From Lacinutrix jangbogonensis (GTDB lineage Bacteria > Bacteroidota > Bacteroidia > Flavobacteriales > Flavobacteriaceae), in contig NZ_JSWF01000012.1 in the NCBI RefSeq assembly GCF_000797445.1, positions 62,001 through 126,000 on the forward strand: a DNA stretch of 64,000 nucleotides, read 5' to 3'. Below are positions 30,757 through 49,845 of this stretch, in pieces; the stretch's first letter is position 1; each line of letters begins with the position of its first letter. A program made the translations under genes and the position numbers. Under the pieces are notes generated by a model that saw only the letters and a list, made by a program, of their open reading frames with translations, did no database searches and was not told where the DNA came from.

Positions 30757-31266
30757 AATTCTATTCTTTTTGTGATAATTACATACAACGTTTCTCTGAT
30801 AAAAAATCGTTGTAATGTTTTTAACAGATGTTACTGAAATTTGTTCAGCACAAGTAAACGAAGTTAATGTTTTTAACAGATGTTACTGAAATTTGTTCAG
30901 CACACGTAAACGAAGTTAATGTTTTTTTTTTTTACAAAGTCAAGTCGCTTGTTTGTTCTAGAAAACAAAAAGCCCATATCGAAGGAAGTGGCTTTTTATA
31001 ATAATTTATCATAATCTAATTATGCTCTCTTTGCTTTAAAACAGGTTTTTACTCTGGACTACTTTTAATCTTGTAATCTCCAGGTTTTGAGTTTACGCAT
31101 ACTAATTTAAAATCGGCTATAAAGGCATTTGTTTAATGAAGGTTCTGTGTAAAGTTAATTGGTTGGCGAGCAACTAAATTAATAAAAGAACCAACCACAG
31201 GAAATTCCGCAGGAATTTCCAAGCCGGCTAGAACACGTAAATAATTATATCTATTGTTGGTAATAG
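30757..31266. repeat. yceI-tail repeat module, copy A, joined to an epimerase-tail remnant
   Basis: 30798-31002 matches the 3' flank of the intact yceI (49051-49203), including the terminator-like hairpin at 30969-30998, with an added 52-base tandem duplication (30814-30865 and 30866-30917, one mismatch). 31003-31089 matches the 3' end of yceI in minus orientation (TCTTGTAATCTCCA). From 31081 the sequence instead matches the last 56 bases of the epimerase gene in plus orientation (about 45 of 56 identical by eye). 31166-31222 holds the second 25-base repeat and a GGAAATTCC...GGAATTTCC palindrome. No gene is open here. Confidence 0.75.
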
Positions 31267-32979
31267 TTATTCTTTGAAAATGGTTTTTCCATCTTTTATG
31301 GTTTCAACTACTTTAATATCTTTTATTTTTAAAGGGTCTGTTTTTAAAGGGTTTTTATCTAAAATCACTAAATCAGCTCTTTTTCCAATTTCTAAAGTCC
31401 CTTTAGAATCAATTTCATCATATTGTTCAGCAGTATATCGCGTCATTGTTAAAAGTCCTTCAAAGGGCGTTACTCTTTGACTACTTCCTACTTTTGCGCC
31501 AGCTCTAGAAATTCTATTTACAGCAGAATACAACATAAACATCTGATCTAATGGTGCTACCACAAAATCTGTATGATTGCTAGGTTTTAAACCTGCATCA
31601 ATGGCATCACGCATTGGGCTTATATATTGTGCTTGTTCTAAACCTCGGTTGGCAAGGTGAGCTTCATAAAAATAATATGTATGTAATGTGTAAAATGAAG
31701 GACGTATTCCGAATTTCACAAATTTTGAGATATGATCTTTTCGCATAAACTGGGTATGGATAGTGGTAACATTCCAAGGTTGGCTATAATCACCATTACG
31801 CACATATTCATATGACTCAAGGAAAGTGTCTATTGCAGCATCTCCATTACAGTGAAGTATAAGTGGTAATTTCAAGTCATAAACACGTTTTACTGCTTTA
31901 TTGACCAATTCTTTTGAAAAGGTGAGCTCGCCATGCCAATTTTTTTCGCCAGCAGGTCCACCTGTTAAATAAGGAGTAGTAAAAGCAGCGGTTCTACCTT
32001 GTGGAGATCCATCTATAGTAATCTTTATGCCTCCAATTTTAAAGTTGTTATTATATTTTAACCATTGAGATTGAGGAATAAGCTCAAATGATTTGTCTAT
32101 TTCCGTAACAAAAGGATAGGCAACTACATCTATGATATTGACACCAGCATCTGATACAGCTTTAATTGTTTCAAGATTATCAATAAGTGTGAATCCTTCT
32201 TGTGCGGTAGTTATCCCTTCTTTTGCGTATAACATTTGTCCAGCTTTGGTCGCTTCAATCTCTTGCTCTAAAGTCATCTTCTCTATTTTCTCGGCGATAG
32301 GTTTATAAGCAGTTTCCATTATTAAACCATAAGGTTCATTTGTACCTGGTTTTCTTACTATTATTCCACCAGAAGGTGTTTCTGTTTCAGCACTTATATC
32401 ATAGTAATCCATAGCTTTGCTATTTAGAACTGTACCATGCATAGAAACATGGTCTATTCTTACTGGATTATTAGGGAAGGCTTTATCTAAATCATCTCTG
32501 TTTAAAAGGCGACCATTCGGCATTACCGTGTCGTCATAACCATAACCCGTTATCATTTCTCCATCCTTTACATCGCGCTCAGATGCAAATTTTTTGAGCG
32601 TGGCAATAATGCTAGGTACATCAGCACCAGAACCTGAAGGTGGAGCATACAACATACATTGGTTGGCTACCATAAGAGAATTACTATAATGACTATGCCC
32701 ATCTAGAAACCCTGGGAGGAGAGTTTTTCCTTCAAGATTTTTTTGATTATAATTTTCACCTGCAATTGATTTAGCCATTTCTAATGAACCAACAAAAATA
32801 ATTTTACCATTATTTTCTACTAAGGCTTCTGCGTATTCAGGAGATATTCCTTTCATGGTAATAATATCTCCACCAAAATATACTTGTGCCGTATTTTCTA
32901 TTTGTTTTTTTTCGGTTTCATTACACGAGAATAGGACTATGATTCCCAATAGTAGTAATAAGTTTTTCTTTGCTTTCAT
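31267..32979 (-). CDS. Amidohydrolase-family lipoprotein (YtcJ-like)
   Basis: 570 residues from the ATG at 32979, which opens a lipoprotein signal (LLLLGIIVLFSC, Cys19); a longer reading by 17 residues would run into repeat module B and is less likely. Metal-binding HxH is in LLPGFLDGHSHYSN, more ligands in LPLILHCNGDAAID and SNHTDFVVAP, and the C-terminus has the usual composite strand KGTLEIGKRADLVILDKNPL. Family members of the YtcJ type hydrolyse amides or cyclic ureides; the substrate cannot be told. Intact, in a region of broken genes, and flanked on both sides by yceI-tail modules. Confidence 0.85.
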   Translation of the reverse strand: MKAKKNLLLLLGIIVLFSCNETEKKQIENTAQVYFGGDIITMKGISPEYAEALVENNGKIIFVGSLEMAKSIAGENYNQKNLEGKTLLPGFLDGHSHYSNSLMVANQCMLYAPPSGSGADVPSIIATLKKFASERDVKDGEMITGYGYDDTVMPNGRLLNRDDLDKAFPNNPVRIDHVSMHGTVLNSKAMDYYDISAETETPSGGIIVRKPGTNEPYGLIMETAYKPIAEKIEKMTLEQEIEATKAGQMLYAKEGITTAQEGFTLIDNLETIKAVSDAGVNIIDVVAYPFVTEIDKSFELIPQSQWLKYNNNFKIGGIKITIDGSPQGRTAAFTTPYLTGGPAGEKNWHGELTFSKELVNKAVKRVYDLKLPLILHCNGDAAIDTFLESYEYVRNGDYSQPWNVTTIHTQFMRKDHISKFVKFGIRPSFYTLHTYYFYEAHLANRGLEQAQYISPMRDAIDAGLKPSNHTDFVVAPLDQMFMLYSAVNRISRAGAKVGSSQRVTPFEGLLTMTRYTAEQYDEIDSKGTLEIGKRADLVILDKNPLKTDPLKIKDIKVVETIKDGKTIFKE

Positions 32980-33005
32980 ATGTGTGTTTTTAATGATTAC
33001 TAATA

Positions 33006-33255
33006 TTTCATTGATAAAAAAGCGTTTCAATGTTTTTTATCAGATGCTACTGAAACGAGTTGAGCACAAGCAAACGAAGTTAGTAGTTTTTTTTGACAAA
33101 GTCAAGTAGCACGTTTGTGCTTGAAAACAAAAAAGCCATATCTTTTGATGTGGCTTTTTAAAAGCTTAATTAAGCTTTCTTCGTTTTAATAGAGATTGTA
33201 ATTCTGCATTAACTTTAATCATACAATCACCAAGTTTTTAGGATTTATAAATTTT
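33006..33255. repeat. yceI-tail repeat module, copy B
   Basis: 33006-33165 matches the 3' flank of intact yceI, with ACAAAGTCAAGT and the hairpin at 33130-33159 (AAAAAGCCA / TGGCTTTTT). 33172-33255 matches the yceI 3' coding end in minus orientation (TTAATAGAGATTGTAA, ATACAATCACCAAGTTTTT). It ends inside what would be the coding region, so it is a truncated gene tail. It lies just upstream of the amidohydrolase. Confidence 0.75.
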
Positions 33256-33505
33256 ACGTCAACATAAATTAGACGTTGTTTATAGTTTTGTTACGCCAAA
33301 TCCAATTATGAAAAACTTTTAGTTTCCCAACTAGTTTATAGTAGTGTCTGTATTAATTGCGGTAATCTTTTTTATCAAATCCTTCTTTTTATTGGACTGA
33401 AAAACGGTTATTAATATGGGATTTAATAACATCTCGAGTGTTACTCAAATTAAAATATATTTTGCTTGAAAGTATTAAGTGGAGCTTTTGAAGAGGAATC
33501 TTATA
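33256..33505. other. Noncoding stretch, possibly more yceI remnant
   Basis: AT-rich, with no open frame and no clear match that I can align by eye. The whole gap between the amidohydrolase start and the next gene is about 525 bases, and the first half is module B. Confidence 0.35.
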
Positions 33506-34092
33506 TTATTCAGAACAAACACTGGAATACAGCTCTATTTCATTCAGCGTGTTCCATACTTTATGTTTAAATGCTTTAGGTGAAAACTTAAATAGAATGA
33601 CTGTTTTTTTTCTTTTTTACAATAGTGACTTTCAATTAAAACATTTAAAGTAATTAGATTGTTAGTTGCAAAACGATCATATGTCTTAACATATCCTTTA
33701 AAAAAAGTAGTGGATTTTCTTTTTTTAATTTTGGTGACTTTTGCGGATGCTTTTCGTTTATCTGTTGTAGCATCCATATCCACCTTATTTAGGCTATTAA
33801 AATATTTAACTAAATCTAGTTCTAACTCTTGTTTTGTGATTTTTCGGTTTACATTGATGCTCCATGCATACGTGTAAGACCAAAAAAATGTATGTTCTGG
33901 CTTTATCCAGCCTTTAGGTGGGAATCTTACTTCTCCAACTCCTATGTAATCCATATGTCTTGCTGGAAAACGAAGTACTTCTTGTCCCCAAGTAGAATCA
34001 AGTTTTATTAAATTAAATTCAGTTTTTTGTGCAAAAATAGGCACAGAACAAAGTAATAATAGTGTAATTAGTGCGATGATTTTATTTTTCAT
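33506..34092 (-). CDS. Secreted protein of unknown function, one frameshift near the end
   Basis: About 195 residues when joined. Signal peptide ALITLLLLCSVPIFAQK, then FNLIKLDSTWGQEVLRFPAR, GVGEVRFPPKGW and WSYTYAWSINVNRKIT, a pattern I know from flavobacterial hypotheticals. The open frame runs off at 33544; one missing T near 33588 restores FSPKAFKHKVWNTLNEIELY and a stop at 33506. It begins five bases after the end of the broken yceI paralogue and is probably cotranscribed with it. Confidence 0.65.
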
Positions 34093-34096
34093 TTTG

Positions 34097-34667
34097 TTAA
34101 AAGATTAAGGTTGCTTTAAAGGCAATAGCATCAGAAATGATTTGGTCTTTTATGCTTGTTACTCCTTGTGATTTATATGTAATATTCCAGTCTGTTCTAT
34201 CAATTTTTAATCGCGTATTTAATTGTGTTTTTGCATCATTTAATTTTGCTACAAAAAAAAACTAATTTCGTTACTTTGTTTATAGTAAGGTTTGCTGTAA
34301 TTTGTAAATAGCTGTCTCCAACATCTTTTACTTTTGTGAAAACTAATTTTGATATTGGGTTAAACTTTACATTAAAAAAATCTTTTCCTTTTTATTGATC
34401 TATAAGGTTTTTCACCCTGGTTTCTTTCTCATTTGATTTTATTGAATTCATATCAATTGTAAATTCGCCTCCGATAATTTTATTATTATTTTTAATAATT
34501 TTTCCTTCTTTAAAATTTATAGTTCCTTCGTGACTTCCAAAACCAAAGAGTTTACTTCCATTCCAAGTTAGCGTACTTTTCGAAAGGTCTATTTGATGTT
34601 TTTCCTGCGCGCTTACCGTAATGGTATAGATGCAGAAAAACAGGAATACTAGAATGCTTTTTTTCAT
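34097..34667 (-). pseudogene. YceI-family paralogue, broken by a stop and a frameshift
   Basis: Joined length is about 190 residues with a signal peptide (FLFFCIYTITVSAQ). YceI proteins are periplasmic lipocalin-like barrels that bind isoprenoid chains. The family blocks STLTWNGSKLFGFGSHEGTI and GGEFTIDMNSI are present. The frame meets TAA after NLIDQ where the family has NLIDHLK, and continues as GKDFFNVKFNPISK; an extra T near 34251 then shifts it, after which LKIDRTDWNITYKSQG is read. It is a diverged paralogue of the intact yceI at 49.2 kb. Confidence 0.75.
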
Positions 34668-34795
34668 GATGTTTAATTTTGAGTTTTAGCTTTTGGTAAA
34701 ACTATTCCCTCTTCAGAAAAAAAGTGTCAAAAAAATGTAAAAGAAATGTGAAAAGTTGTAAAAATAATAATTTTCTTTTTTAATTTGAATGACAA

Positions 34796-35821
34796 TTATG
34801 GTTCAAACTTTAGAATTACGGCTAATGTTTTTTTTTTTGTTTTTTTGACAATGTGGAGGTTTTTTACTTTCTCAAATTTAACAGGCGAATGTTCCTTTAT
34901 TAGTACTCCATTAACTAAAATCTCTTCAAAATATGCTTTTGCTCCAGTAGCAATATTCATATCTTCTACGTTCTGAATATGAAAATGCAAATGTGGCTCT
35001 GTAGTGTTGCCCGAATTTCCACATAAACCTAGCAAATCTCCTTGTTGTACTTTTTGTCCTTGTTTTACTTTTATTGAATGCTGTTTGAAATGTGCAAAGA
35101 ATAAATATTCGTTATTATTCGTTTTTATAATTACAGTATTTCCAGGTACATAATTTGGGTTTGTTACTCCCGGTTTATTGTCTTTTACACCATCTACAAC
35201 CAGCACAACTTCGCCGTTTGTAGGTGCTATTAAGTCTTTGCCAAAGGCATAATAATCTTCGTTGATTTTTCCGTCGTTTTTGTAATTTTTACCAGAAGAA
35301 TCAGTAATTACTAAATCAAATGCATTTTTTTGAGCCTTATACGCAACATGGTAGTTTTGTTCTTTAGTATCTCCACCCCAAAAAACCGTCCACTCCTCTT
35401 TAAAAGGCAATATAAGTTTAGAAGTATTCCTTTTAAGTTTAGGTAGCTTTTCTATTACATAGGGTTTCACCATCAACCCATTGATTTTGGATTTTGCATC
35501 TACAGAAATAAATAGTGCCACAACAACACGTTCAAATGTTGTTTTGTATAAGGCTACATTGGCCTGTGGGTATTTTATAAACTTTCGCTCTGTTATATTG
35601 CCTGCTTCGGTTTGTAATCCGTTTAAAAAAGCAAGTGCTTTATCATGTGGCATAATTTTTTTCATCTCTTGAGCAAACATGTTAAAAATACCTTCGTAAT
35701 CATTAGCACTGTATTTTTTTTGAAATTCATTAGCTACAGCTTTAGAAATAGCAGTTTCTTGTTGTGCTATTGTAGTATTTGTAAGTAGAATTGTTAGTAT
35801 AAATATGATGAATATTTTCAT
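34796..35821 (-). CDS. M23-type peptidase-like secreted protein
   Basis: 341 residues: signal peptide (FILTILLTNTTIAQ), an N-terminal helical DUF3887-like region (about 25-110: KAVANEFQKKYSANDYEGIF), a linker, and an M23 LytM-type domain (about 190-310: IAPTNGEVVLVVDG, GNTVIIKTNNNEYLFFAHFK, LLGLCGNSGNTTEPHLHFHI). The second zinc motif HLHFH is intact, but the usual HxxxD is AFGKD at 192-196. An alternative ligand pair is H158 with the D in NAFDL. M23 enzymes cut peptidoglycan cross-links. It is the third gene after the ECF sigma factor. Confidence 0.8.
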   Translation of the reverse strand: MKIFIIFILTILLTNTTIAQQETAISKAVANEFQKKYSANDYEGIFNMFAQEMKKIMPHDKALAFLNGLQTEAGNITERKFIKYPQANVALYKTTFERVVVALFISVDAKSKINGLMVKPYVIEKLPKLKRNTSKLILPFKEEWTVFWGGDTKEQNYHVAYKAQKNAFDLVITDSSGKNYKNDGKINEDYYAFGKDLIAPTNGEVVLVVDGVKDNKPGVTNPNYVPGNTVIIKTNNNEYLFFAHFKQHSIKVKQGQKVQQGDLLGLCGNSGNTTEPHLHFHIQNVEDMNIATGAKAYFEEILVNGVLIKEHSPVKFEKVKNLHIVKKTKKKTLAVILKFEP

Positions 35822-35831
35822 TATTGTTATA

Positions 35832-36473
35832 TTAATTTGAGTTGTTTAGCTGCTGCTGAATATCCTCGATGGTTTTTAAAATTGGTTGTACGTCTTTTTT
35901 AGCGGCTATTTTGTGAACCCCTATAGTAATAAGATAAAAGACACCTAGACCTATTATAGTGCCTAATTTGGCGTTAAATGTTAATGGTAATAGGTTTTCT
36001 GCTATGCTGTTGGTCCAATTATAATCAGCAGGATTTTCTAACCCGATAATAAATATAAAGTTTGTAATAAAAGAAGGGCCAGCATACCAATAGCCTGCAG
36101 AATTTAATAGTTTTAATTGGTGTTGCATTAACTGTTTTTTATGGTCGAGTTGCTCTTTAATCGGTAATGTTAGATTCTCAGATGAATTTTTTTGATTTGA
36201 TTTTTTGAATTTATAAATAACATATATAAACCATAGAATAGATAAGAAACAAGAGAGTTTGGTAATTGTAAACGGGATTTCATACACGAAATAGCTAAAA
36301 AGTAGTATTCCAAATACTGAAGCAGAAATTTCTCTCACATCTCTTTTTCTAATCTTCTTTTGAATATTTGTCATCTTTGTATCAAACTCCTTTACCAAGC
36401 GATCGGTTTCAATGCTTATTTGAGCTGTTTCCGAAGAATTCTTCCAGATGTTTTTTAGTTCTTGTTCTAACAT
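35832..36473 (-). CDS. Membrane protein in ECF sigma operon, probable anti-sigma partner
   Basis: 213 residues from MLEQELKNIWKNS, one base after the sigma factor stop; a longer reading would overlap that gene. Four membrane segments: two in the middle (ISASVFGILLFSYFVYEI, LSCFLSILWFIYVIYKF) and two later (WYAGPSFITNFIFIIG, LGTIIGLGVFYLITIGV), with a cytoplasmic N-terminus of about 50 residues that could hold the sigma factor. No ZAS-type HxxxCxxC is present. The anti-sigma role is inferred from position. Confidence 0.7.
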   Translation of the reverse strand: MLEQELKNIWKNSSETAQISIETDRLVKEFDTKMTNIQKKIRKRDVREISASVFGILLFSYFVYEIPFTITKLSCFLSILWFIYVIYKFKKSNQKNSSENLTLPIKEQLDHKKQLMQHQLKLLNSAGYWYAGPSFITNFIFIIGLENPADYNWTNSIAENLLPLTFNAKLGTIIGLGVFYLITIGVHKIAAKKDVQPILKTIEDIQQQLNNSN

Positions 36474-36474
36474 G

Positions 36475-36978: not shown

Positions 36979-37011
36979 GTATTTAAAGATATCAAAAAAT
37001 GTGTTGTTACC

Positions 37012-37224
37012 TTAGTTTTTTTTTGATGCCGTCTTCTCCAATTTGTTTTTTGCTGAAGCATACCTCATAAACTCTATAAAAAAGCCACTTAGTAAAATGA
37101 AATTAATTTTACTATACGCTTCTCCTAAAACAAAGGAAGAAACAAGCATCACGGTTGCCCAAACAATGCTATTGATAATTAAAGTGTTGCTTAAAAACTG
37201 TTTTGTTTTTTTAGTATTTACCAT
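37012..37224 (-). CDS. Small membrane protein at the head of the ECF sigma operon
   Basis: 70 residues, two membrane segments (LIINSIVWATVMLVSSFVLG, FILLSGFFIEFMRYA) and basic ends. Ends 33 bases before the sigma factor start. No family recognised. Confidence 0.55.
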   Translation of the reverse strand: MVNTKKTKQFLSNTLIINSIVWATVMLVSSFVLGEAYSKINFILLSGFFIEFMRYASAKNKLEKTASKKN

Positions 37225-37353
37225 AGTCTTAAAATTTAATGCACATCTGTTGTAATGTGTCTCTATTCTTTTAGTGACAGGCTTTATTAAAATATGACAA
37301 AAAAAATTGAATTTTTTATTTTGGAGTATGTTAATTTTGAATTGTTGCCAATG

Positions 37354-37592
37354 ATATCGTTGATAAAAAACCGGTTCAATATCAATACAAGTTAAACATA
37401 AGTAAACGAATTTAGCGGTTTTCTCACAAAGTCAAGTCGTTTGGTTTCTCTTTAAAATCAAAATAACTACATCTCTCGAAGTGGATTTTTAAAATAAAGA
37501 TTTATAGCGTTACATTAAATTCTATAATCTCCAAGTTTTGCTAGATCTCTAAATTTTATAGAGTTTTTTGTTAATATTCTATTCAGTTATTA
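37354..37592. repeat. yceI-tail repeat module, copy C
   Basis: Shares with the intact locus TTGATAAAAAACCG, ACAAAGTCAAGTCGTTT, a decayed hairpin (37460-37490) and, in minus orientation, the yceI 3' coding end with ATAATCTCCAAGTTTTGC and, further on, ATTCTATTCAGTT. It holds about 100 bases of dead coding sequence. The remaining parts of the 422-base gap between 37225 and 37646 show nothing I can identify. Confidence 0.75.
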
Positions 37593-37646
37593 TAGTGGTA
37601 AAGATATTTATAAGTTAGAGGCTTTTTTGGTGCTTGTTATTATTCT

Positions 37647-38845: not shown

Positions 38846-39027
38846 TTTAATTGGCTTTTGATTTGATTCCAAATATGCATACTTAGCTAAACATTGTATG
38901 TTAAATTGTAGGTAAATTATGATTATACTGAACTTCTATCTAATAAGTACCAAAGGTCTTGTATAAGAATAGTTACAGATTTGCTTACGAGGACTTTCTG
39001 AAGCATAGCTTCTAGATGCATTACAAA

Positions 39028-40203: not shown

Positions 40204-40352
40204 AAGTATTGATTTTATTATTGTCAATGTGCATGGCTAAGTTGCGTAAAAACGCTTTGGTTTTTTTAGTTTTTAAAAAACCAAGATACTAAAAGTGCCA
40301 TTAATCTTCGTTGGGGAATTTATAAACCATAAACGATACAAGCTGTTGTTTA

Positions 40353-41777
40353 TTAAATTCCTCTATAATAATCCAAGATCTTAACTCGAAGTAAATACTC
40401 ATATTTAGTTTGACTTAAATTTAACAAAGAAGTCTCCATATTATTCTTAGATGTTATGTATTCTACACTATTCGATACACCGTTATTAAACCGTACTTCG
40501 TTAACACGAAAGGACTCTTGATATGCTGCTACCTGACTTTTTAAAACTTGATATCTTTTAAAGGAAGTTTCCATATTATTATAGGATTGTTGAATAGATT
40601 GCTTAAAAACAAACTTAGTTTGTTTCAAGTTTACTTGTACTTCTTCATGTTGTGTTTTTTCAATTCTTATTTTATTTTTTGCTCGAAAACCATTAAATAA
40701 AGGCACTCTAATTGTTATTCCAACTACAGAATTTAAGTTGTTGTCAAACTGATCCTTATAATTGATTCTAGAACCTTCAAACTGACGCTCATTTCTCATA
40801 ACCGATTGCTCTTGACCATTAATAGAAACAAAATCTCCTGTTTCAATAGTAGACGTTCCTGTTTGTGTAAATAATTGTGCAACACTAGAATAGTTTGTAT
40901 TTAATTGTCCAAATAAAGAGATCTCCGGGAAGTAATTTGCTCTAGCAATTTTAATTCCCGTTTTTGCGGCATCAATTCTCAGCTGTTTTGATTTAAAGGT
41001 TGCTAAATTTTCAAGCGCATCATTATAAATAGTACTAGCAGAAGCCTGATACTTTTCTAGATTAATAATTTCAGAATAATTTTCGAACTCATTTTTAGAA
41101 TCTATATCAATATTTAACAGCTTTACTAGATTTAAAACTGCTGTTTTTAAATTGTTCTCAGCAGTAATGATTTCTGTTTGATCTCTAGTGAATTGTCCAT
41201 TCATATCTGTAAAAGTAGCAGGATTTCCCAAACCATTATTGTACTGTGATTCTAATCTTTTAAGCTGGACTTTAGTTGTTGTAAGTCTTGCTTTTGAAAG
41301 TTCCAATACATCTCTGTTATTTAAAATTTGAATATATAAAAGCGTAACTTTAAGTGTTAGGTTTTGTTTTACCTCTTTAATTTCCATTTCGGAAGCCTGC
41401 ATATTAAATTTACTTTGCTTAATCTCATTTTTGATTCTAAAGCCATTAAAAATGGTTGCATCTAAACTTAAACCAGCATTAGAAAAAGTAAGTTCCTGAT
41501 TTACAAAGCTATTTGTAAACGGGTCAATACTTCGACCATTATTGATTCCCAAGTTGTAATTCATATTCAAACTAGGAAGTATCTTGTTTCTAGTCTCTTT
41601 GAAGCTTACTTCAGAAGATTTTGCTCTTAATTCTTTGATTTTTAGATCAAGATTATTTTCTATCGCAATATCAATACAATTCTGTAAGGTATAAATGGTT
41701 GTTGCTACGTTTTGAGAAAACCCAAAATTGAGCACACTCAACCAAAGACCTGTAATTAGTATTATCCTTTTGTTCAT
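40353..41777 (-). CDS. TolC-family outer-membrane efflux protein
   Basis: 474 residues with a signal peptide (LWLSVLNFGFSQN). The two-fold TolC layout of long helices is visible (IYTLQNCIDIAIENNLDLKI; SKARLTTTKVQLKRLESQYN; second half RKNKIRIEKTQHEEVQVNLK-type stretch and YQESFRVNEVRFNNGVSNSV). It forms the outer-membrane tunnel of an export system. Last gene of the four-gene operon with FtsX-type permease, ATPase and HlyD adaptor. Confidence 0.9.
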   Translation of the reverse strand: MNKRIILITGLWLSVLNFGFSQNVATTIYTLQNCIDIAIENNLDLKIKELRAKSSEVSFKETRNKILPSLNMNYNLGINNGRSIDPFTNSFVNQELTFSNAGLSLDATIFNGFRIKNEIKQSKFNMQASEMEIKEVKQNLTLKVTLLYIQILNNRDVLELSKARLTTTKVQLKRLESQYNNGLGNPATFTDMNGQFTRDQTEIITAENNLKTAVLNLVKLLNIDIDSKNEFENYSEIINLEKYQASASTIYNDALENLATFKSKQLRIDAAKTGIKIARANYFPEISLFGQLNTNYSSVAQLFTQTGTSTIETGDFVSINGQEQSVMRNERQFEGSRINYKDQFDNNLNSVVGITIRVPLFNGFRAKNKIRIEKTQHEEVQVNLKQTKFVFKQSIQQSYNNMETSFKRYQVLKSQVAAYQESFRVNEVRFNNGVSNSVEYITSKNNMETSLLNLSQTKYEYLLRVKILDYYRGI

Positions 41778-41803
41778 AATTATTAATTTATATGAATTGT
41801 AGC

Positions 41804-44140
41804 CTAATCGCTTTTTAAACTTTTTACTGGATTCACTAATGCAATCTTTATGGATTCAAAGCTTACCGTTACTAAAGCGATACCAATTATTAGTCCTCCT
41901 GTGGCTATAAAAGCCCACCATGGCATGTCTATTCTGTACTCATAATTTGCTAACCATTTATTCATGAAATACCATGCAATAGGAACACCGATAACGATTC
42001 CTAATAGTATTAATTTTATAAAGTCTTTTGTTATAAGGGACGTAATGGCAAATACAGAAGCTCCTACAACTTTTCGCATACCAATCTCTTTTGTTCTTTG
42101 TTCGGCTGTAAACATGACCAAACCAAAAAGGCCTAAACATGAAATTAAAATGGCTAAAATAGAGAAGAACGTTGATAATGTATAAAACGTAGATTCACTT
42201 TTATACAGTTTATTGTATTCACTATCCATAAACTTATATTCAAACGGGAATGCTGGGTTTAACTCGGTATGTAGCGTCTCAAGTGAAGCTAATGTTTGCT
42301 GTACATGGTCTGAATTGTACTTAATGAAAGCGGTGTTAAATTCAGCATAACCTTCACTTCTAATAACTAAAGGGAAAATAGATTCTTTTAAAGAACTAAA
42401 GTGGAAATCTTTAACAACGCCAACAATAGTCCCAGAATTTCCCCAAAAAGAGATTGTTTGTCCTACTGGATTTTCCATCTTCATTTGTTTCATTGCACTT
42501 TCATTAATCAAGTATTCAATATTATCAGGATTATTATGAATTAGATCTCTTCCCATATGTAATTTGGCGCCATATGTTTTTATGAAATCCATACTTCCTA
42601 CCATTCCAGTAAATAAAGAACCATCTTCATCCGTTTTTCCATTCCAAATAACTTCTGGAGAAGTACCATATGCTCCCAATAAAATATGTGATGTTTTTGT
42701 TACCGAACTAACTCCGGAAATTTGCAAAGCACCTGTTTTAAAAGCATTATAATTTTTCTGTAAATCTTTGGAAAGAGTTACCGCTAGTAAACTTTCACGT
42801 TCAAAACCGATATCTTTATTCTGAACATAATCTATTTGTTTTGAAATAATAAGCATACAACTTATAAAGACAACAGAAATTGTAAATTGAAAAACAACCA
42901 ACGCTTTTCTAATCAATTTGGTTATAGAACTCGTTTCAATTTTCTTCTTAAAAATATCAGTCACTTTAAAGGATGATAATAAAAATGCAGGGTAACTTCC
43001 AGATAATATTCCTGTAAAAAGTGTTATAAGTAAGACCATTACCCAAGTAGATAGAGGTAAGTTTGCTAGATCGATACTCTTATCTGTTATTTGATTAAAA
43101 AGAGGAAGCGCCAAGGCTATAAAAATTAAAGCAAAAAACAAACTTGATAATGACAAGAGTATCGCTTCTCCTAAAAACTGACCAATTAGACTGCCTTTTC
43201 CAGCTCCAAGTACTTTTCTTATACCAATTTCTTTCGCTCGTTTCATAGAACCGGCAGAAGCCAAATTCATAAAATTAATACTAGCAATCAACATGATTAA
43301 AAATGCGATGATTCCAAATAAGCGGACATATTCTATTTTGCCACTACCGTTTTCAAGGTCTGCATACAAATAACGATCTCCATAAGGCTGTAGTTCTATA
43401 GCGAATGCACCAACGTAATCTTTTAAAAACGGTTTTAGTTTTTGTTCTACTTGTTTTACATCTGCTCCTTTGGTTAACTGAACAAAAGTATTCGTGCCAA
43501 AGTTTTTCCACTCGGACATCCAATCGTTTTCGGCCAGAAGTGAGTCAAAGGATAAATAAAAATCACTTTTTTCGGTAGTATTCTCACTTCCTAAATCAAA
43601 CACCATAGAGATTTTTAAGGCTTTAGAATTTTCGAAAGTTAGTGATTGACCAACTGCACTTTTTACAGTATCAAAAAATAACTCTGCCATGTCTTTTGAA
43701 ATGGCAATAGTGTTAGGACTACTTAATGCAGTAGCGGCATTTCCTTCTAAAATATTAAATGAGAACATATTAAAATAGTCTTCACTTACATACTTACCGC
43801 TTTGCTTTAAAACCTTGTTATTGTTAGAGAATGTGTAATTTCTATCATTATTAGACATTGCAGTTACGCTTTCAATTTCAGGGATTTTTTCTTTTAATTC
43901 CTTATATAGAAGGGATGGTGTTCCGTAACCATATTCTGCACCATCAGAGGTCGTGAGGTATGCAGAATAAAGGGTATCGTTATTTTCGTGATATTTATTG
44001 ACACTGTTTTCACTTGAAATCCATAAATAAATAAGTAAAAAACAAAATAAACCAGATGTCAGTCCTAAAATATTAAGAAATGATAAAACCTTATTCGCTT
44101 TAATATTTCTCCATGTTAATTTAAAATAGTTCGTAATCAT
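41804..44140 (-). CDS. MacB/FtsX-type ABC transporter permease
   Basis: 778 residues with the duplicated FtsX layout: an N-terminal segment (VLSFLNILGLTSGLFCFLLI), a periplasmic MacB-PCD region, three segments (IIAFLIMLIASINFMNLA with KRAKEIGIRKVLGAGKGSL after it), a second PCD region, and a C-terminal set (SCLGLFGLVMFTAEQRTKEI, then GMRKVVGASVFAI). The coupling motifs KEIGIRKV and KEIGMRKV occur once per half. It is a mechanotransmission-type exporter; the substrate is unknown, possibly a peptide or antibiotic. Twelve bases after the ATPase gene. Confidence 0.9.
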   Translation of the reverse strand: MITNYFKLTWRNIKANKVLSFLNILGLTSGLFCFLLIYLWISSENSVNKYHENNDTLYSAYLTTSDGAEYGYGTPSLLYKELKEKIPEIESVTAMSNNDRNYTFSNNNKVLKQSGKYVSEDYFNMFSFNILEGNAATALSSPNTIAISKDMAELFFDTVKSAVGQSLTFENSKALKISMVFDLGSENTTEKSDFYLSFDSLLAENDWMSEWKNFGTNTFVQLTKGADVKQVEQKLKPFLKDYVGAFAIELQPYGDRYLYADLENGSGKIEYVRLFGIIAFLIMLIASINFMNLASAGSMKRAKEIGIRKVLGAGKGSLIGQFLGEAILLSLSSLFFALIFIALALPLFNQITDKSIDLANLPLSTWVMVLLITLFTGILSGSYPAFLLSSFKVTDIFKKKIETSSITKLIRKALVVFQFTISVVFISCMLIISKQIDYVQNKDIGFERESLLAVTLSKDLQKNYNAFKTGALQISGVSSVTKTSHILLGAYGTSPEVIWNGKTDEDGSLFTGMVGSMDFIKTYGAKLHMGRDLIHNNPDNIEYLINESAMKQMKMENPVGQTISFWGNSGTIVGVVKDFHFSSLKESIFPLVIRSEGYAEFNTAFIKYNSDHVQQTLASLETLHTELNPAFPFEYKFMDSEYNKLYKSESTFYTLSTFFSILAILISCLGLFGLVMFTAEQRTKEIGMRKVVGASVFAITSLITKDFIKLILLGIVIGVPIAWYFMNKWLANYEYRIDMPWWAFIATGGLIIGIALVTVSFESIKIALVNPVKSLKSD

Positions 44141-44151
44141 AATTAGGTGTC

Positions 44152-44835
44152 TTAATAGTTAGATAATAAGCTCTCAGTTACTTTTTCGCCATCGAGCATG
44201 CGTATAATGCGATTCCCGTATTTTGCATCATGCTCACTATGTGTAACCATAATAATTGTAGAACCTTGATTGTTCAGTTCTGTAAGTAATTCCATTACTT
44301 CGTTCCCGGTTTTACTGTCTAAATTCCCAGTTGGTTCATCTGCTAGAATAAGTTTTGGTTCATTAACCAAAGCTCTTGCAACTGCAACTCTTTGTTGTTG
44401 ACCACCAGAAAGTTGTGTTGGAAAATGACTGCGCCTATGCATAATTTGCATTCTTTCAAGTACTTCATCTACCTTTCCTTTGCGTTCGCTTTTCTTTATT
44501 CCTGTGTAGATTAAGGCCAATTCTACGTTTTCAAAAACAGTCAATTCATCAATTAAATTGAAGCTCTGAAATACGAAACCAATGTTATGTTTTCTTAAAT
44601 GAGCTCGTTGACGTTCTTTATAGTTAATGACTTCTTCATCATTAAAAATGAAGCTTCCGCCATCTGCATCATCTAAAAGACCTAGAATGTTAAGTAGTGT
44701 AGATTTACCACTTCCTGAAGGTCCCATGATGGATACAAATTCTCCCTTTTTTACTTCAAATGAAATTTTATTTAGGGCAATTGTTTTGTATTCTTGAGTC
44801 GTGAAATATTTTTCTAAGTTGCTGATTTTTATCAT
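44152..44835 (-). CDS. ABC transporter ATPase of the MacB/LolD type
   Basis: 227 residues. Walker A GPSGSGKST (38-46), Q-loop FVFQSFNL, signature LSGGQQQRVAVARAL, Walker B LILADEPTGNLD and the H-loop VTHSEHDA. It powers the neighbouring FtsX-type permease. It lies five bases after the adaptor gene. Confidence 0.95.
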   Translation of the reverse strand: MIKISNLEKYFTTQEYKTIALNKISFEVKKGEFVSIMGPSGSGKSTLLNILGLLDDADGGSFIFNDEEVINYKERQRAHLRKHNIGFVFQSFNLIDELTVFENVELALIYTGIKKSERKGKVDEVLERMQIMHRRSHFPTQLSGGQQQRVAVARALVNEPKLILADEPTGNLDSKTGNEVMELLTELNNQGSTIIMVTHSEHDAKYGNRIIRMLDGEKVTESLLSNY

Positions 44836-44840
44836 GATGT

Positions 44841-46097
44841 TTATTTTTTACTTAATATTAATTCGTTTTTGTCTCCGTAGTCTTGATAACTAGATGTAAT
44901 AATTTTATCTCCAGGTTTAAGTCCTTCTAATACTTCATAATATTCTGTATTCTGACTTCCTAATTGAATATCTACGCGATAGGCACTCTTGCCATCATCA
45001 CTAAGTTTAAAGATCCAATTACCTCCTGTTTTTTGAAAAAAGCTTCCTTTAGGAATTAGTACCGCTTGCTTCTCGTCGCTTAATGCTAATCGAGTTCTTA
45101 AAGATTGCCCACGTCGTATACCTTCTGGTATTTTCGATTCGAAATGCATATCAACTTGGAAACGACCATTTGTAACTTGCGTGTATACTTTTTTAATCAC
45201 TAATTTATAAGTATTTCCGTTAAAAGCAAATGTTCCATTTTGTCCAGAATAAATTCTTGAAATATAATTTTCGTCTATCTCAGCACGTACCTTAAAGCCA
45301 CTTAATACATCCACTTGTCCTAAACGCTCTCCTTTATTTTTAGATTGTCCAATTTCGGCATCTAAAGATGTTAATTGTCCATTAACAGGTGCTCTAACAA
45401 TTAAATCTCCAACTTTTTTGCGCATCAATGCCAAGGCACTCTGAGTTCTAGTATATGAATTTTTGGATTGAAACGCTTCTAATGTGGTGGATAATGAATC
45501 TTGTTTTAAGACTTGTAAAGCCAATTCCATACGTTGTTTTTGGTAGTTATAGTTGTTTTTGGCTTCTTCAAATTCTTGATTTCCAATTGCCTTTTCATTA
45601 TAAAGTGATTTATTAAGTGTGTATTTTCTATTGGCTTCAATGAATGCATTTTCCACATCTGTTTTTCGATTTAATTTATTTATCGTGTTTTCACGAGCTG
45701 CATTTTGAGAAATCTGCATTTGAGTTAATAGATTGTACACAGAAGTTTCTTGATTCACTAGATTTAATTCTAAATCGGTATTCGAAAGACGTAAAATAGG
45801 TTGGCCTTGTTGCATAATTGCGCCATCTTCTACAAAAATTTCTTCAACTCTTCCGCCTTCAAGCGCATCTAAATAGATTGTTGTAATGGGTAAAACAGTG
45901 CCGTTTACAGGAATGTTCTCTTGAAATGCACCGTTTTTAACTTCACTAATTTTAATACGGTCGGTATCAATATTTAATGTAGAGTTTCCTCCAAACGACA
46001 TTGATAAGTAAATTACAAAAGATATTAAAAGGATTGCTACAACAGCAATAGCAATTTTTGGTGGATTAAATTTTTTCTTGGTAATTGGTATGTCCAT
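44841..46097 (-). CDS. HlyD/MacA-type periplasmic adaptor
   Basis: 418 residues: an N-terminal membrane anchor (PPKIAIAVVAILLISFVIYL), the lipoyl halves (LDALEGGRVEEIFVEDGAI and VRAPVNGQLTSLDAEIGQS), an alpha-helical hairpin of about 100 residues between them, then the beta-barrel and membrane-proximal domains. It links the FtsX-type permease to TolC. First gene of the operon, with a sigma-54-like promoter 26 bases upstream. Confidence 0.9.
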   Translation of the reverse strand: MDIPITKKKFNPPKIAIAVVAILLISFVIYLSMSFGGNSTLNIDTDRIKISEVKNGAFQENIPVNGTVLPITTIYLDALEGGRVEEIFVEDGAIMQQGQPILRLSNTDLELNLVNQETSVYNLLTQMQISQNAARENTINKLNRKTDVENAFIEANRKYTLNKSLYNEKAIGNQEFEEAKNNYNYQKQRMELALQVLKQDSLSTTLEAFQSKNSYTRTQSALALMRKKVGDLIVRAPVNGQLTSLDAEIGQSKNKGERLGQVDVLSGFKVRAEIDENYISRIYSGQNGTFAFNGNTYKLVIKKVYTQVTNGRFQVDMHFESKIPEGIRRGQSLRTRLALSDEKQAVLIPKGSFFQKTGGNWIFKLSDDGKSAYRVDIQLGSQNTEYYEVLEGLKPGDKIITSSYQDYGDKNELILSKK

Positions 46098-46122
46098 TAT
46101 TATTTTATTTACTAAATCAATT

Positions 46123-46137
46123 GTGATTATCGTGCCA
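46123..46137 (-). promoter_or_regulatory. Sigma-54-like promoter of the efflux operon
   Basis: On the minus strand the sequence is TGGCACG-N4-TCAC. The -24 part is a perfect match to TGGCACG, and the spacing is correct, but the -12 part matches TTGC at only two of four bases. The position, 26 bases before the adaptor start and next to a sigma-54 activator gene, supports it. Confidence 0.55.
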
Positions 46138-46189
46138 AAAACATAAACACCTTATAGTTAGGTTTTTACATTTTTTTAAAGCATGTGAT

Positions 46190-46232
46190 GTGTACGGTTT
46201 TGATACAACTAGTGTGCGGTTTAGTGACACTT
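46190..46232. promoter_or_regulatory. Two phased direct repeats, likely activator sites
   Basis: TGTACGGTTTTGATACA (46191-46207) and TGTGCGGTTTAGTGACA (46213-46229) start 22 bases apart, two helical turns. Each has TGT and ACA at its ends, so each could be a dimer site. They lie 55-90 bases upstream of the sigma-54-like promoter, the normal place for an NtrC-type activator. Confidence 0.6.
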
Positions 46233-46284
46233 TCTTGGATTTTGACATTTTTACTTGAAACTCTCCATCTGAATATTAATAAAA

Positions 46285-46302
46285 CATACTTTTGTAAGTA
46301 TG
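46285..46302 (+). promoter_or_regulatory. Palindrome covering -7 box and start codon of the regulator gene
   Basis: CATACTT-TTGT-AAGTATG is a perfect seven-base inverted repeat whose last three bases are the ATG. It contains TACTTTTG (46287-46294), a TAnnTTTG box. The box is only five bases from the ATG, so transcription from it would give a leaderless message, or the box is fortuitous. Confidence 0.4.
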
Positions 46303-47646
46303 TTATTGAAAAACACTTCCATACTGGTTATTGATGATGACTCAGATGTATTGATAGCTATGAAAATGCTATTAAAGTCTAAGGTTAAGGAGGTTGTTAT
46401 TGAGAAAAATCCAAACAACCTTATTTCAATATTAAATAAAAATAAATTTGATATTGTTATTTTAGATATGAATTACAATAGTGTAATAAATACTGGTAAT
46501 GAAGGTATCTATTGGCTCACTAAAATTAAAGAGATAGATAGAGACATTGCTGTTATTTTAATTACAGCATATGGAGATTTGGACTTGGCAGTACGTGCGC
46601 TTAAAAAGGGCGCTTCAGATTTTGTGGTTAAACCGTGGAAAAATCAAAAACTATTAGATTCAGTAACAGAAATATTAGCTAATAAAAAATCTAATAAAAC
46701 TAAGAAATGGAAACCACAAGTTAATGGACTTAGACTATTAGGGGAAAGTAATACCATGCAAGCCGTATTCTATAAGGTTAAAAAAATTGCTCCAACTGAT
46801 GCTAATATTTTGGTGCTTGGAGAAAATGGAACCGGAAAAGATCTCATTGCAAAAGCTATACATGACAACTCTTTAAGAAAAGATAAGCCCTTTATAAAAG
46901 TTGATGTTGGCGCATTAACAGCATCATTATTTGAAAGTGAATTGTTTGGTTATGTAAAAGGGGCCTTTACAGACGCCAGAGAGGATAGACAAGGTCGGTT
47001 TGAAGCCGCAGAAGGTGGTACCTTATTTTTAGATGAAATTGGTAATATAAGTTTGCAACAACAGGCACGATTGTTAACTGTACTTCAGAATAGACATATA
47101 ACACCTTTGGGTTCTAATACATCTATTCCCGTAGATATTAGATTGATTTGTGCTACCAATTCTAGCCTTGAAATTCTGGCAAATGAAGATAATTTCAGGA
47201 AAGATTTAATTTACAGAATAAATACAGTCGAAATAGTTATTCCTCCATTGAGAGATCGAGATCGAGATATTACCTTATTAGCTAAACATTTTATTGAAGT
47301 GTATACCGATAAATATTTTAAATCTAATGTTTCTTTCGATACAAGTTTTATGAAAAAACTAGTAGAATATCATTTTCCTGGTAATGTTCGGGAACTTCAA
47401 TATGCAATTGAAAGAGCTGTAATCATGATGGATACAAATGTATTAAATGCTACAGATTTAATGTTTTCACCCATAGAAAGTTATTCTGAAACCACACAAG
47501 TAAAAGATTTAAAGTTAGACACTGTAGAGAAAAATACGATATTAAAAGTAATAGAAAAAAATAATGGCAATATCTCAAAATCAGCAAAAGAATTAGGTAT
47601 TACCAGAACGTCGCTCTATAGAAGACTAAATAAATATGGCTTATAG
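46300..47646 (+). CDS. Sigma-54-dependent response regulator (NtrC family)
   Basis: 448 residues: receiver domain (acidic pocket IDDD at 11-14, phospho-acceptor Asp56 in VILDMNY, Lys in VVKPW), AAA+ domain (Walker A GENGTGKD, GYVKGAFTDA as the sigma-54 loop with D for G, Walker B GGTLFLDEIGN, FPGNVRELQ), and a C-terminal Fis-type helix-turn-helix (GNISKSAKELGITRTSLYRR). It activates sigma-54 promoters, most likely that of the divergent efflux operon. It overlaps the kinase gene by 11 bases. Confidence 0.93.
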   Translation: MLLKNTSILVIDDDSDVLIAMKMLLKSKVKEVVIEKNPNNLISILNKNKFDIVILDMNYNSVINTGNEGIYWLTKIKEIDRDIAVILITAYGDLDLAVRALKKGASDFVVKPWKNQKLLDSVTEILANKKSNKTKKWKPQVNGLRLLGESNTMQAVFYKVKKIAPTDANILVLGENGTGKDLIAKAIHDNSLRKDKPFIKVDVGALTASLFESELFGYVKGAFTDAREDRQGRFEAAEGGTLFLDEIGNISLQQQARLLTVLQNRHITPLGSNTSIPVDIRLICATNSSLEILANEDNFRKDLIYRINTVEIVIPPLRDRDRDITLLAKHFIEVYTDKYFKSNVSFDTSFMKKLVEYHFPGNVRELQYAIERAVIMMDTNVLNATDLMFSPIESYSETTQVKDLKLDTVEKNTILKVIEKNNGNISKSAKELGITRTSLYRRLNKYGL

Positions 47647-49003
47647 AAAATATAAATTATCGCTATTACTTAGAATCTTTGCTGTTTTCTGTTTGCTATT
47701 GATTTTGGCATTTGGCATGCTCACTTTAGATTTTAAGACGAAAGCTTTAATCTCTATAATTACCCTAGCTCCAATTGTTTTAATTCTAGTTTTGCTGATA
47801 AATAGTCTCTTTAAATTTATTATAAGGAGGCATAAATCGATGCATGATTTTTTTGAATCTGTGAAGTACAACGATTATTCTCAGTGGTTCAATGAAAAAT
47901 CTGGGCCAGAAGATATTAGAGAACTTCATCAAGGCTTTAATGCTGTTAATCAAAAAATTAAGGACATTAACAAGGACAAGGAAACACAGTATTTGTATTT
48001 GGAAAAAATATTGGAATTAATTGACACAGGTATTGTGGCTTATAGCATAAGTACCGGAAACGTTATATGGATTAATGAATCCTTTAAAGAACTTTTAAAA
48101 ACACCTACTTTAAAGAATATTAAGTTTGTAAAAAAGAGAAGTCAAAACATCTTTAAAACTGTTTTTGAAGCGCAACATGTCAATGGAAGTACAATAACTA
48201 TAGACACAGAGAAAAATAAAGCGAAACTATTAATTTCTACTGCTCATTTTAAGATGAATAACGAGGAATTTAAGTTAATTGTGTTGCAGAATATTGATAA
48301 TACTTTAAATCAAAATCAATCGGAAGCATGGAATAAATTACTTCATATAATGACGCATGAAATTATGAATTCAATTACTCCAATTTCTTCTTTAGCTGAA
48401 ACCTTACAAGCTGAAATTAAATTAAATATTGAAGATTCAAAGAAATATCCTATAGATACGAACGATCTTTATTTGAGTGTTAATAGTATACAGAAAAGGA
48501 GCGAAGGCTTAATGAATTTTTCAAAATCTTATCGTGGACTTAATAAAATCACAACAATAAATGCAAGTAAAGTTTATGTGAGAGAATTGTTTGATGGAAT
48601 TAATAATTTATTAAAGTCTTCTTTAAAAAGTAAAGGTATTGACTTACAGTTTATAATAGACAGCCAGAAACTTCAAATTAGTATGGACGCTGTACTTATT
48701 GAGCAAGTATTAATTAATTTAATAATGAATAGTGTCGATGCTTGCATTGAAAGAGATCAACCAAAAATTATTATTTCTGCAAAGACAAGTAGTGAGGGTT
48801 ACGCTATTATTAAAATCAGAGATAATGGGAAAGGGATACCTGAAGTACTCTTAGATAAAATATTTATACCTTTTTTTACTTCAAAAAAGAAAGGTAGTGG
48901 TATTGGCTTAAGTTTATGTCAACAAATTATGTTTCTTCATAAAGGTCAAATTCAAGCAAACTCTATTGAGAATAACGGAACTGAAATTAGATTGGTATTT
49001 TAA
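47636..49003 (+). CDS. Sensor histidine kinase
   Basis: 455 residues. Two membrane segments near the N-terminus with almost no periplasmic loop (FAVFCLLLILAFGMLTL, ALISIITLAPIVLILVLLI), so it probably senses in or through the membrane. A PAS-like region follows (ELIDTGIVAYSISTGNVIWI), then the phospho-acceptor block THEIMNSITPISSLAE and the ATPase domain with N-box NLIMNSVDACIE, RDNGKGIP and GSGIGLSLCQQI. Its partner is the overlapping sigma-54 regulator. Confidence 0.92.
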   Translation: MAYRKYKLSLLLRIFAVFCLLLILAFGMLTLDFKTKALISIITLAPIVLILVLLINSLFKFIIRRHKSMHDFFESVKYNDYSQWFNEKSGPEDIRELHQGFNAVNQKIKDINKDKETQYLYLEKILELIDTGIVAYSISTGNVIWINESFKELLKTPTLKNIKFVKKRSQNIFKTVFEAQHVNGSTITIDTEKNKAKLLISTAHFKMNNEEFKLIVLQNIDNTLNQNQSEAWNKLLHIMTHEIMNSITPISSLAETLQAEIKLNIEDSKKYPIDTNDLYLSVNSIQKRSEGLMNFSKSYRGLNKITTINASKVYVRELFDGINNLLKSSLKSKGIDLQFIIDSQKLQISMDAVLIEQVLINLIMNSVDACIERDQPKIIISAKTSSEGYAIIKIRDNGKGIPEVLLDKIFIPFFTSKKKGSGIGLSLCQQIMFLHKGQIQANSIENNGTEIRLVF

Positions 49004-49050
49004 TTTATTTCACCATTAGTTTACGTTTAACTTTTTTAAAGTTTGTAATG

Positions 49051-49203
49051 TTTCGTTGATATAAAACCGTTTCAATATTGAAGTAAGTTAGAAGTAAAGT
49101 AAGTTAGCGAGTTCCTTATAAAGTTAAGTCGTTTTGTTTATTCTTAAAAACAGAAAAGCCACATCTTTCGATGTGGCTTTTCAAAATAGTTTATAAAATC
49201 TAG
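49051..49203. repeat. yceI-tail repeat module, copy D (parent locus)
   Basis: The 3' flank of the intact yceI on the minus strand and of the kinase gene on the plus strand. It has TTGATATAAAACCG, AAAGTTAAGTCGTTTTGTTT and the hairpin at 49154-49181. Copies A, B and C share this order, and also the adjoining yceI 3' coding end, so this locus is the likely source. Confidence 0.8.
49154..49181. terminator. Bidirectional terminator between kinase gene and yceI
   Basis: AAAAGCCACAT pairs with ATGTGGCTTTT around CTTTCG. It lies between converging genes and is flanked by A and T runs on both sides. Confidence 0.8.
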
Positions 49204-49845
49204 TTATGCTTTTTTAGCTGTAATAGAGATTTTTAACTCTACATCATCTTTAATCATGTAATCTCCAAGTTTTGCAGGATCTGCAAATTTCCCAGAGTTA
49301 TACTTAATGTTCCATTCAGTTCTATCAATAGTAAATACATCACTAGTAATGGTCATCATGTCACCAGTCATTCCAACTGTTACAGGAACAGTAACATTCT
49401 TCTTAATACCTTTCATCATTAAGTTACCGCTTATTTTTCCATTTTCAACACTTGTGATTTCGAAAGATGCATTTGGATGTTTTTCAACATCAAAGAAATC
49501 ATCAGCTTTTAAATGTCCTTCTAATTTTCCTTTTTGCACTGCATCTTCAATATCAGTGTTTTTTAAAGTAGCAATATCAAAAATAAAGCTTCCACCTACT
49601 AATTGATTTCCTTTAGTTTTTGCAACACCATTAGATACGTTTATAGTACCAGAATGTCCTCCAACGATTTTGTTTGCCTTCCAAATAATCATAGACTTTT
49701 CTGGAATGGCTTTGTATTTTGCTTCAACTTCAACCTCAACAACTTCTTTTGCATCTGTAGTCTCTGCTTCAGTTCCTTTTTTACAACCTACAACAGCAAG
49801 ACCTAATGCTAATACTGTGAAGATATTTAATACTTGTTTTCTCAT
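49204..49845 (-). CDS. YceI-family lipoprotein
   Basis: 213 residues with a lipobox (AVVGC, Cys21) and an acidic linker. The lipocalin-like YceI barrel is seen in SMIIWKANKIVGGHSGTINV, GGSFIFDIATLKNTD, GHLKADDFFDVEKHPNASF, GIKKNVTVPV and FTIDRTEWNIKYNSGKF. These proteins bind polyisoprenoid chains in the envelope. Intact, with its own promoter box; the parent of the dispersed tail modules. Confidence 0.92.
   Translation of the reverse strand: MRKQVLNIFTVLALGLAVVGCKKGTEAETTDAKEVVEVEVEAKYKAIPEKSMIIWKANKIVGGHSGTINVSNGVAKTKGNQLVGGSFIFDIATLKNTDIEDAVQKGKLEGHLKADDFFDVEKHPNASFEITSVENGKISGNLMMKGIKKNVTVPVTVGMTGDMMTITSDVFTIDRTEWNIKYNSGKFADPAKLGDYMIKDDVELKISITAKKA

Follow-up and report, generated by a model that had tools for sequence, protein, structure and literature searches.

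Copied yceI gene tails in Lacinutrix jangbogonensis as probable left shoulders of integron-type docking units

The yceI-epimerase interval and its copied gene tails

In a 64,000-nucleotide stretch of the Lacinutrix jangbogonensis genome (contig NZ_JSWF01000012.1, positions 62,001 to 126,000; hereafter the window), the gene yceI and a convergent gene for a NAD-dependent epimerase are 20.5 kb apart, and the interval between them holds three truncated copies of the yceI 3' end together with its terminator and noncoding flank. Four such segments, counting the intact locus, had been reported by the first-pass annotation; they are present near the places it gave, in identical order and all on the minus strand. 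When copy 2 was searched against the whole genome, it recovered copy 1 (E value, 3.8e-31), the intact locus (2e-21), and copy 3 (3.3e-9), so the similarity is above the chance level for AT-rich sequence, and a chance likeness of the four copies was rejected. The same search also matched many places solely over the flank beyond the terminator; among the matches listed for relatives, 10 of the 12 same-genus genomes have such flank-only matches (G009 and G011 over 27 nt only), and G003 and G008 have none. The copied module therefore has two parts, a yceI tail with its terminator and a dispersed element of about 90 bp, here called E, which is found at many loci without yceI. The "TTGATAAAAAACCG" start and the "ACAAAGTCAAGTCG" block, first described as separate parts, do follow each other in the order reported and are the two ends of this one element. 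The parts of the window are listed below (L, left border; R, right border; C, attC-like site; R1 and R2, covariance models for E and C).

49204..49845, minus strand: intact yceI, left border gene (L); Pfam YceI 3e-26, one close orthologue per genome in 13
49154..49181, minus strand: yceI terminator hairpin; from the sequence, with a like hairpin in the relatives inspected
49046..49130, minus strand: element E of the intact locus, degenerate; nhmmer E value 3e-5
40218..40363, minus strand: possible decayed C site after the outer membrane efflux protein (OEP) gene; model R2 E value 0.019 unfiltered, 0.33 in a larger search, a weak call
38949..39003, minus strand: partial C site (attC-like, right half) following the 39028-40227 gene; nhmmer 9e-8, unfiltered covariance model 8.7 bits, E value 1.9
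37465..37612, minus strand: copy 3, yceI tail and terminator remnant (L); alignment, tblastn 16-residue match with E value 0.024
37355..37438, minus strand: copy 3, element E; nhmmer 1e-7
33259..33304, plus strand: epimerase remnant (R) joined to copy 2; matches epimerase nt 646-690 by blastn, nhmmer E value 0.0052
33109..33258, minus strand: copy 2, yceI tail and terminator (L); alignment, genome search
33001..33107, minus strand: copy 2, element E, well preserved, with an intact gene next to it; nhmmer 2e-18, model R1 94 bits
31267..32979, minus strand: amidohydrolase gene, carried as cassette by the E of copy 2; Pfam Amidohydro_3 1.2e-83
31143..31274, minus strand: C site (attC-like) belonging to the amidohydrolase cassette; 49.9 bits with model R2 (E value 2e-8)
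31081..31152, plus strand: remnant of the epimerase 3' end (R), joined to copy 1 near CAAAACC (junction by eye); 79% identity to epimerase nt 848-917 by blastn, E value 1.5e-10, nhmmer E value 3.9e-5
30960..31088, minus strand: copy 1, yceI tail and terminator remnant (L); alignment, genome search
30784..30945, minus strand: copy 1, element E containing a 52-bp internal duplication; sequence, nhmmer
29757..29875, minus strand: C site (attC-like) following the broken gene behind copy 1; 49.4 bits with model R2 (E value 2.5e-8)
28670..28690, minus strand: possible truncated C arm with displaced core TTAAACAAATC, directly before the epimerase gene; by eye
27754..28656, plus strand: NAD-dependent epimerase, right border gene (R); Pfam Epimerase and DUF1731, convergent with yceI in 11 of the 12 relatives

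Pairwise identities among the copies are 69 to 80% for the coding tail, 71 to 83% for the untranslated region (UTR) with the terminator, and 68 to 85% and 70 to 87% for the two halves of E. The flank is thus as well kept as the dead coding tail, as had been proposed, but not clearly better kept, given that the ranges overlap. A 3'UTR-derived small RNA, suggested on that ground, finds no support here: conservation of the flank does not exceed that of the tail, and Rfam gave no match. The tails themselves are real yceI sequence, but their lengths are not a uniform 80 to 130 coding bases, copy 3 reaching about 160 nt into yceI by eye. What had been taken for a fifth, broken yceI at 34.1 to 34.7 kb is no copy of the intact gene; positions 34107 to 34667 hold a distinct YceI-family gene (28 to 31% amino acid identity to intact yceI), cargo within the third of the units described below, with an in-frame stop and its pieces in different frames.

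The locus was compared in 13 same-genus genomes, consisting of the window's own genome (G000) and 12 relatives. Each has exactly one close yceI orthologue, second YceI genes being located elsewhere and showing 37 to 45% identity; yceI adjoins grpE in all 12 relatives, and in 11 of them 71 bp to about 2.8 kb separate the yceI 3' end from a convergent epimerase gene (the G007 stretch fetched around yceI showed no epimerase). Eighteen proteins of the window's insert were compared with 14 stretches of 17 to 20 kb around the relatives' yceI; 15 found no match at a threshold of 1e-5, and the remaining three matched yceI itself or general ABC or sigma54-activator proteins at 28 to 41% identity. From the unmatched proteins and the 20.5-kb gap, the yceI-epimerase interval is, on sequence comparison, an insertion hotspot. 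Different species hold different inserts at this place, and the insert of one relative (G001) has the yceI terminator a second time at its end (by eye); the relatives inspected carry a like hairpin 3' of yceI.

Two of the copies preserve the other border as well. Upstream of the copy 1 tail stands the epimerase 3' end (31081-31152; 79% over 72 nt, E value 1.5e-10), and upstream of the copy 2 tail an internal epimerase fragment (33259-33304), which shows 75 to 84% identity with 7 of 11 epimerase genes, 67 to 72% with two more, and none with those of G003 and G010, with a weak profile E value of 0.0052; copy 3 has no epimerase remnant that we could find. Copies 1 and 2 are therefore each a right border fused to a left border and followed by E. 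Decay of tandem yceI paralogues, which the first-pass annotation had offered, would suit tails that share one orientation and end about at the yceI stop; against it stand the single close orthologue in each of the 13 genomes, the constant grpE neighbor, the epimerase remnants adjoining two of the tails (copies 1 and 2), and the similar units at loci without yceI, and in the relatives' 17- to 20-kb stretches no full yceI gene was found at any of the three places. We give this explanation next to no credence. Serial integrative islands at the yceI 3' end were also considered and rejected: no recombinase domain was found in the 17 insert proteins scanned with Pfam (smaller and broken frames lay outside the scan), and a fixed crossover point in yceI is contradicted by the varying tail lengths (by eye) and by the fusion of two copies to epimerase remnants. 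The earlier idea of repeated recombination comes close, but the evidence places it best at the fused flanks and in element E rather than at the terminator.

Element E in empty and occupied form

Element E consists of a promoter-like front and a palindromic recombination core. Model R1, applied to up to 150 scored candidates per genome, found it in 12 of the 13 genus genomes at an E value of 1e-3 or below, with at least 24 copies in the window's own genome and at least 44 in G005; none was found under these settings in G008. At an E value of 1e-4 or below, it was found in 31 of 149 genomes of the family. Its front holds TTG-N20-TAACTTCG, which is close to the flavobacterial sigmaA -7 box, given as TAnnTTTG in an excerpt of PMC9723704. 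E often stands directly before gene starts, and judged from sequence it likely drives cassette expression as a promoter. Some copies (L004, L009, L021, L094:9410, and 33001-33107 of the window) carry an extra palindrome-like stretch (CTTGTGCTGAACTTGTTTCAGTA-like), which resembles the dispersed palindromes of other Bacteroidetes; a Y1-transposase repeat of the REP/PATE type came into consideration on account of the palindrome in long E forms.

The state of E before and after insertion could be compared at a locus flanked by a FAD oxidoreductase gene and a convergent epimerase gene. It has one E and no gene of at least 80 amino acids in G004, two E in G012, and seven E in G005, each followed there by a gene or operon, five of the seven with a recognized C; between the G005 units, the tail sequence of the right neighbor and the flank of the left neighbor are repeated. 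Where the site is empty, in G004, E has a left arm reading TTCGTTTAAC that is mirrored by the right arm, TTAAACGAACC. The G005 insert begins at the E core, and AAACGAACC recurs behind the approximately 145-bp site C that follows the gene, a displacement of the core that corresponds to insertion as for an integron cassette. A second locus, recognized as the same by its left flanks, likewise varies by species, with two E and no C in G012 (L274) and four E with three C in G005 (L267). The starts of the cassettes at E agree with the arm of their own C: over 14 distinct places at which start and arm could both be parsed (unparsed entries and repeat occurrences of one place left out), the mean was 5.0 of 6 bases with 10 perfect pairs, compared with a mean of 2.2 and a maximum of 3.9 in 20,000 shuffles.

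These arms bear on two other readings of the locus. If E were a mere regulatory promoter-leader or small RNA repeat, with the match to cassette logic secondary, its TTG-N20-TAACTTCG near a sigmaA -7 box and its frequent place just before gene starts would be expected; however, at L111 it lies between convergent genes with no gene of at least 80 amino acids behind it, its arms are exchanged as in a recombination site, and Rfam is silent, which makes this reading very improbable. Homologous recombination after DNA uptake alone, with no integrase needed at E, could have swapped and stacked the occupants of the hotspot, consistent with species-specific inserts at one place and with a CAAAACC match at the copy 1 junction (by eye) that fits end joining; it leaves unexplained the matching arms and the boundaries of the inserts, with the E core at their start and C at their end, and we consider it unlikely.

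The window can be read in the same terms on the minus strand as an array of four units. Unit 4 opens with the degenerate E at 49046-49130 and unit 3 with copy 3. Unit 2 comprises copy 2 with its well-preserved E, the intact amidohydrolase gene, the C site at 31143-31274, and an epimerase remnant, and unit 1 comprises copy 1, a broken gene, the C site at 29757-29875, and a bestrophin fragment, after which the real epimerase gene follows. The amidohydrolase cassette starts with AGTAAT, which agrees with its own C arm, GGTAAT, in 5 of 6 bases; a putative arm of the bestrophin cassette at 28682 was read by eye.

C sites and their integrase

Site C has conserved inverted outer arms and a consensus fold of 9 pairs only. 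Within the window's family, 132 of 149 genomes contain sites recognized by model R2, as do 50 of 198 sampled from the phylum. To inspect the edges of C sites, six regions of five genomes were fetched; all six have a tyrosine recombinase at the edge, and five have at least four C sites; ATTG followed by TT stands beside the recombinase in L141, L143, L144, and L145, and L142 and L146 differ (by eye). Among 80 integrase loci from named records, 28 (all of them among the 60 loci longer than 4,510 bp) hold 51 C sites in total, 50 of which are on the integrase strand and none upstream of it, compared with one C site in 14 control yceI-flank loci covering 277 kb. C sites also lie downstream of the integrase in all three Tenacibaculum loci fetched (L233, L236, L240); the consulted part of a Tenacibaculum genome paper that used IntegronFinder 2.0, on species other than these, reports no integron. 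The arrays follow the cassette logic seen at E: for successive sites in four arrays, with pairs that span missed sites kept, the six bases after the preceding core agree with the left arm of the own C at a mean of 5.04 of 6 (46 pairs, 30 perfect), compared with a mean of 2.21 and a maximum of 3.15 in 10,000 shuffles. Element E was also tried as the attI of the main integron and rejected; the E profile had no match at an E value of 0.05 in the six integrase regions, which indicates that E and attI differ.

The integrase is Xer-like. Two of four proteins passed the cutoff of NF040815 ("site-specific tyrosine recombinase/integron integrase"), and all four remained below the cutoff of TIGR02249 (IntI), which they matched in two pieces (172 to 209 bits; cutoff, 265). 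Such matches by themselves say little, because they also occur below the cutoff in 13 of 14 control genomes. Where the solved IntI4 structure has 51 residues, the L144 integrase has 10, so that about 41 residues of IntI-specific insertion are absent, and the integrase lacks the additional domain (I2 helix region) specific to IntI. In the portions of the literature consulted, the I2 insertion is tied to recombination of folded single-stranded sites and Xer proteins are without it (PMC7790495), and the insertion is treated as defining for IntI (PMC9668308) and described as not fully conserved in an integron-like subgroup (PMC8138268). Integron variant is the best label for the system, whose integrase falls outside the IntI domain definition. 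The G004 integrase is 100% identical to that of NZ_LIQH01000046.1 (Lacinutrix algicola). G005 has a shorter integrase of 278 amino acids (L142:10596-11432), 34% identical to the L144 form and divergent from its C array, which is perhaps a second integrase type serving similar sites. In G008, the genus genome without E at threshold, the integrase beside the large array has two stops (L145, G008:C1:834586-835378).

Proposed multiplication of units and comparison with known systems

Unit anatomy, cassette logic, E in empty and occupied form, and the association of integrase and arrays are observed, and together they lead us to conclude, with a probability of roughly 80%, that the yceI-tail copies are the left shoulders of integron-type docking units, arranged as tandem R-L-E and partly decayed. 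Such a unit would consist of L (the yceI tail with its terminator), E, one or more cassettes ending in C, and R (the convergent epimerase tail), and an integrase encoded elsewhere in the genome would most likely insert the cassettes into the E core; the action of this integrase on E is what we infer from sequence. A first joining of R to L by illegitimate recombination, near CAAAACC in copy 1, may have produced a tandem docking unit. Homologous recombination, or movement of composite cassettes, could then have multiplied the R-L-E unit head to tail, and cassettes would have filled the E copies one by one. With an empty unit joined R to L, every new E brings a yceI tail and terminator along, and such multiplication would account for the copied terminator and dead gene tail as well as for the varying tail lengths. 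Both the manner of multiplication and the order of the duplication events are put forward as inferred steps.

The flanks of tandem E copies were compared within and between arrays. With C sites masked, 7 of 14 arrays had a shared left flank, and of the 56 within-array pairs, 42 exceeded the 95% point of 805 between-array pairs; unmasked, the same point was exceeded by 41 of 56 pairs and in 9 of 14 arrays. The highest between-array scores came from the same locus in different species. By eye, the left neighbor's terminator is repeated with E at a locus in G004 and G005 (L271, L273) and at one in G005 (L267), and R-L-E-like units also occur at loci without yceI. At G006:C9, next to an empty first E, three E copies whose cassettes start differently are each preceded by a closely similar R-L junction; at G005:C32, there are two junction types, each common to two units with different genes (both by eye). 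The two latter loci are what would be expected if a composite cassette, cassette-C-R-L-E, moved as one with E as its terminal site, so that the integrase itself would spread the yceI tail and terminator. Tandem duplication with later cassette insertion yields the same picture, however, and we regard composite movement as less likely than not.

Several results weigh against tandem docking units in the form proposed. No shared left flank was found in the masked run at 7 of the 14 tandem-E loci (L112, L270, L271, L272, L273, L275, L096), and covariation in E is low, with a double change in 1 of 14 stem pairs. In the window, no C arm was found that matches the E start of copy 1, copy 3, or the intact locus better than chance; no C was recognized in unit 3 and the C calls of unit 4 are weak; and the two genes beside the intact E of unit 4 are oriented opposite to cassettes. 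The 8-of-9 arm match of copy 2 arises somewhere in 78 of 300 shuffled segments, and it therefore counts solely through its position in a called C. The own genome's integrase scores below the NF040815 cutoff (182.7 bits; cutoff, 220) and is encoded on another contig, which has one C beside it and ends soon after, and 52 of the 80 integrase loci show no C.

In a wider sense, the Flavobacteriaceae may have a family-wide integron that exchanges cassettes at folded sites without I2, part of the family having in addition scattered and multiplied promoter-bearing landing sites that serve as insulated single-cassette expression slots; we advance this tentatively, with a little less than even confidence. 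As in a sedentary chromosomal integron, a cassette is a gene plus an attC-like site, arrays run in one orientation with the integrase at one end, the attC arm is complementary to the start of its own cassette, and exchange would occur at a GTT-type core; unlike there, the integrase is without about 41 residues of IntI-specific insertion, and cassettes also stand at scattered E sites away from it. Loot et al. reportedly described in 2024 genomic sites of cassette insertion by IntI, termed attG. Excerpts of PMC12901181 characterize attG sites as strongly divergent in sequence and structure; the system described here resembles them in having chromosomal cassettes away from the integron and, as far as those excerpts go, differs in that E is a conserved family of about 90 bp with its own promoter-like front and palindromic core. 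The clusters of attC without an integrase called CALIN, as introduced in parts of PMC9024848 and PMC8618304, are similarly composed of attC-bearing genes far from an integrase, whereas here, by comparison with those parts, an E precedes the genes and the tails of the border genes recur from unit to unit. The promoter-bearing, gene-less cassettes of Vibrionaceae (PMC11014356, in excerpt) are likewise small elements that give neighboring cassettes a promoter, as the promoter-like front of E would; unlike them, to judge from the excerpt, E receives cassettes, is dispersed, and gives no sign here of moving as a cassette. For Bacteroidetes, the consulted section of the IntegronFinder 2.0 paper mentions nothing but In0 elements from earlier work and then a complete integron in Salinibacter (PMC9024848), and Bacteroidota are named among integron-bearing phyla in a passage of PMC8618304. 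Within the accessible parts of the open-access literature (subscription papers and preprints lay outside the search), we found no description of Flavobacteriaceae cassette arrays with such an integrase, or of E.

An odd repeat would thus become a means of reading a gene-capture system that may escape the standard integron tool. Cassette arrays beside an Xer-like enzyme without the I2 insertion make the claim of reliance on I2 directly testable, and docking units offer a concrete candidate mechanism for hotspots of accessory genes. If the wider proposal holds, promoter-bearing landing sites, each with a terminator, a promoter, and a docking core, would form single-cassette slots across the chromosome.

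The window's cargo contains further features. A 9-bp tandem repeat (AACATAAAG, about ten copies) at 28711-28820 adjoins the bestrophin fragment and the epimerase end. Unit 4 carries a MacB-type efflux set (OEP, FtsX permease, ABC ATPase, HlyD; 40353-49003) and, on the other strand, a sigma54 response regulator with a kinase. The amidohydrolase has two relatives in the same genome (G000:C12:35698-37389 and G000:C35:33445-35136), which share 37% identity with it at equal scores and are possibly identical copies.

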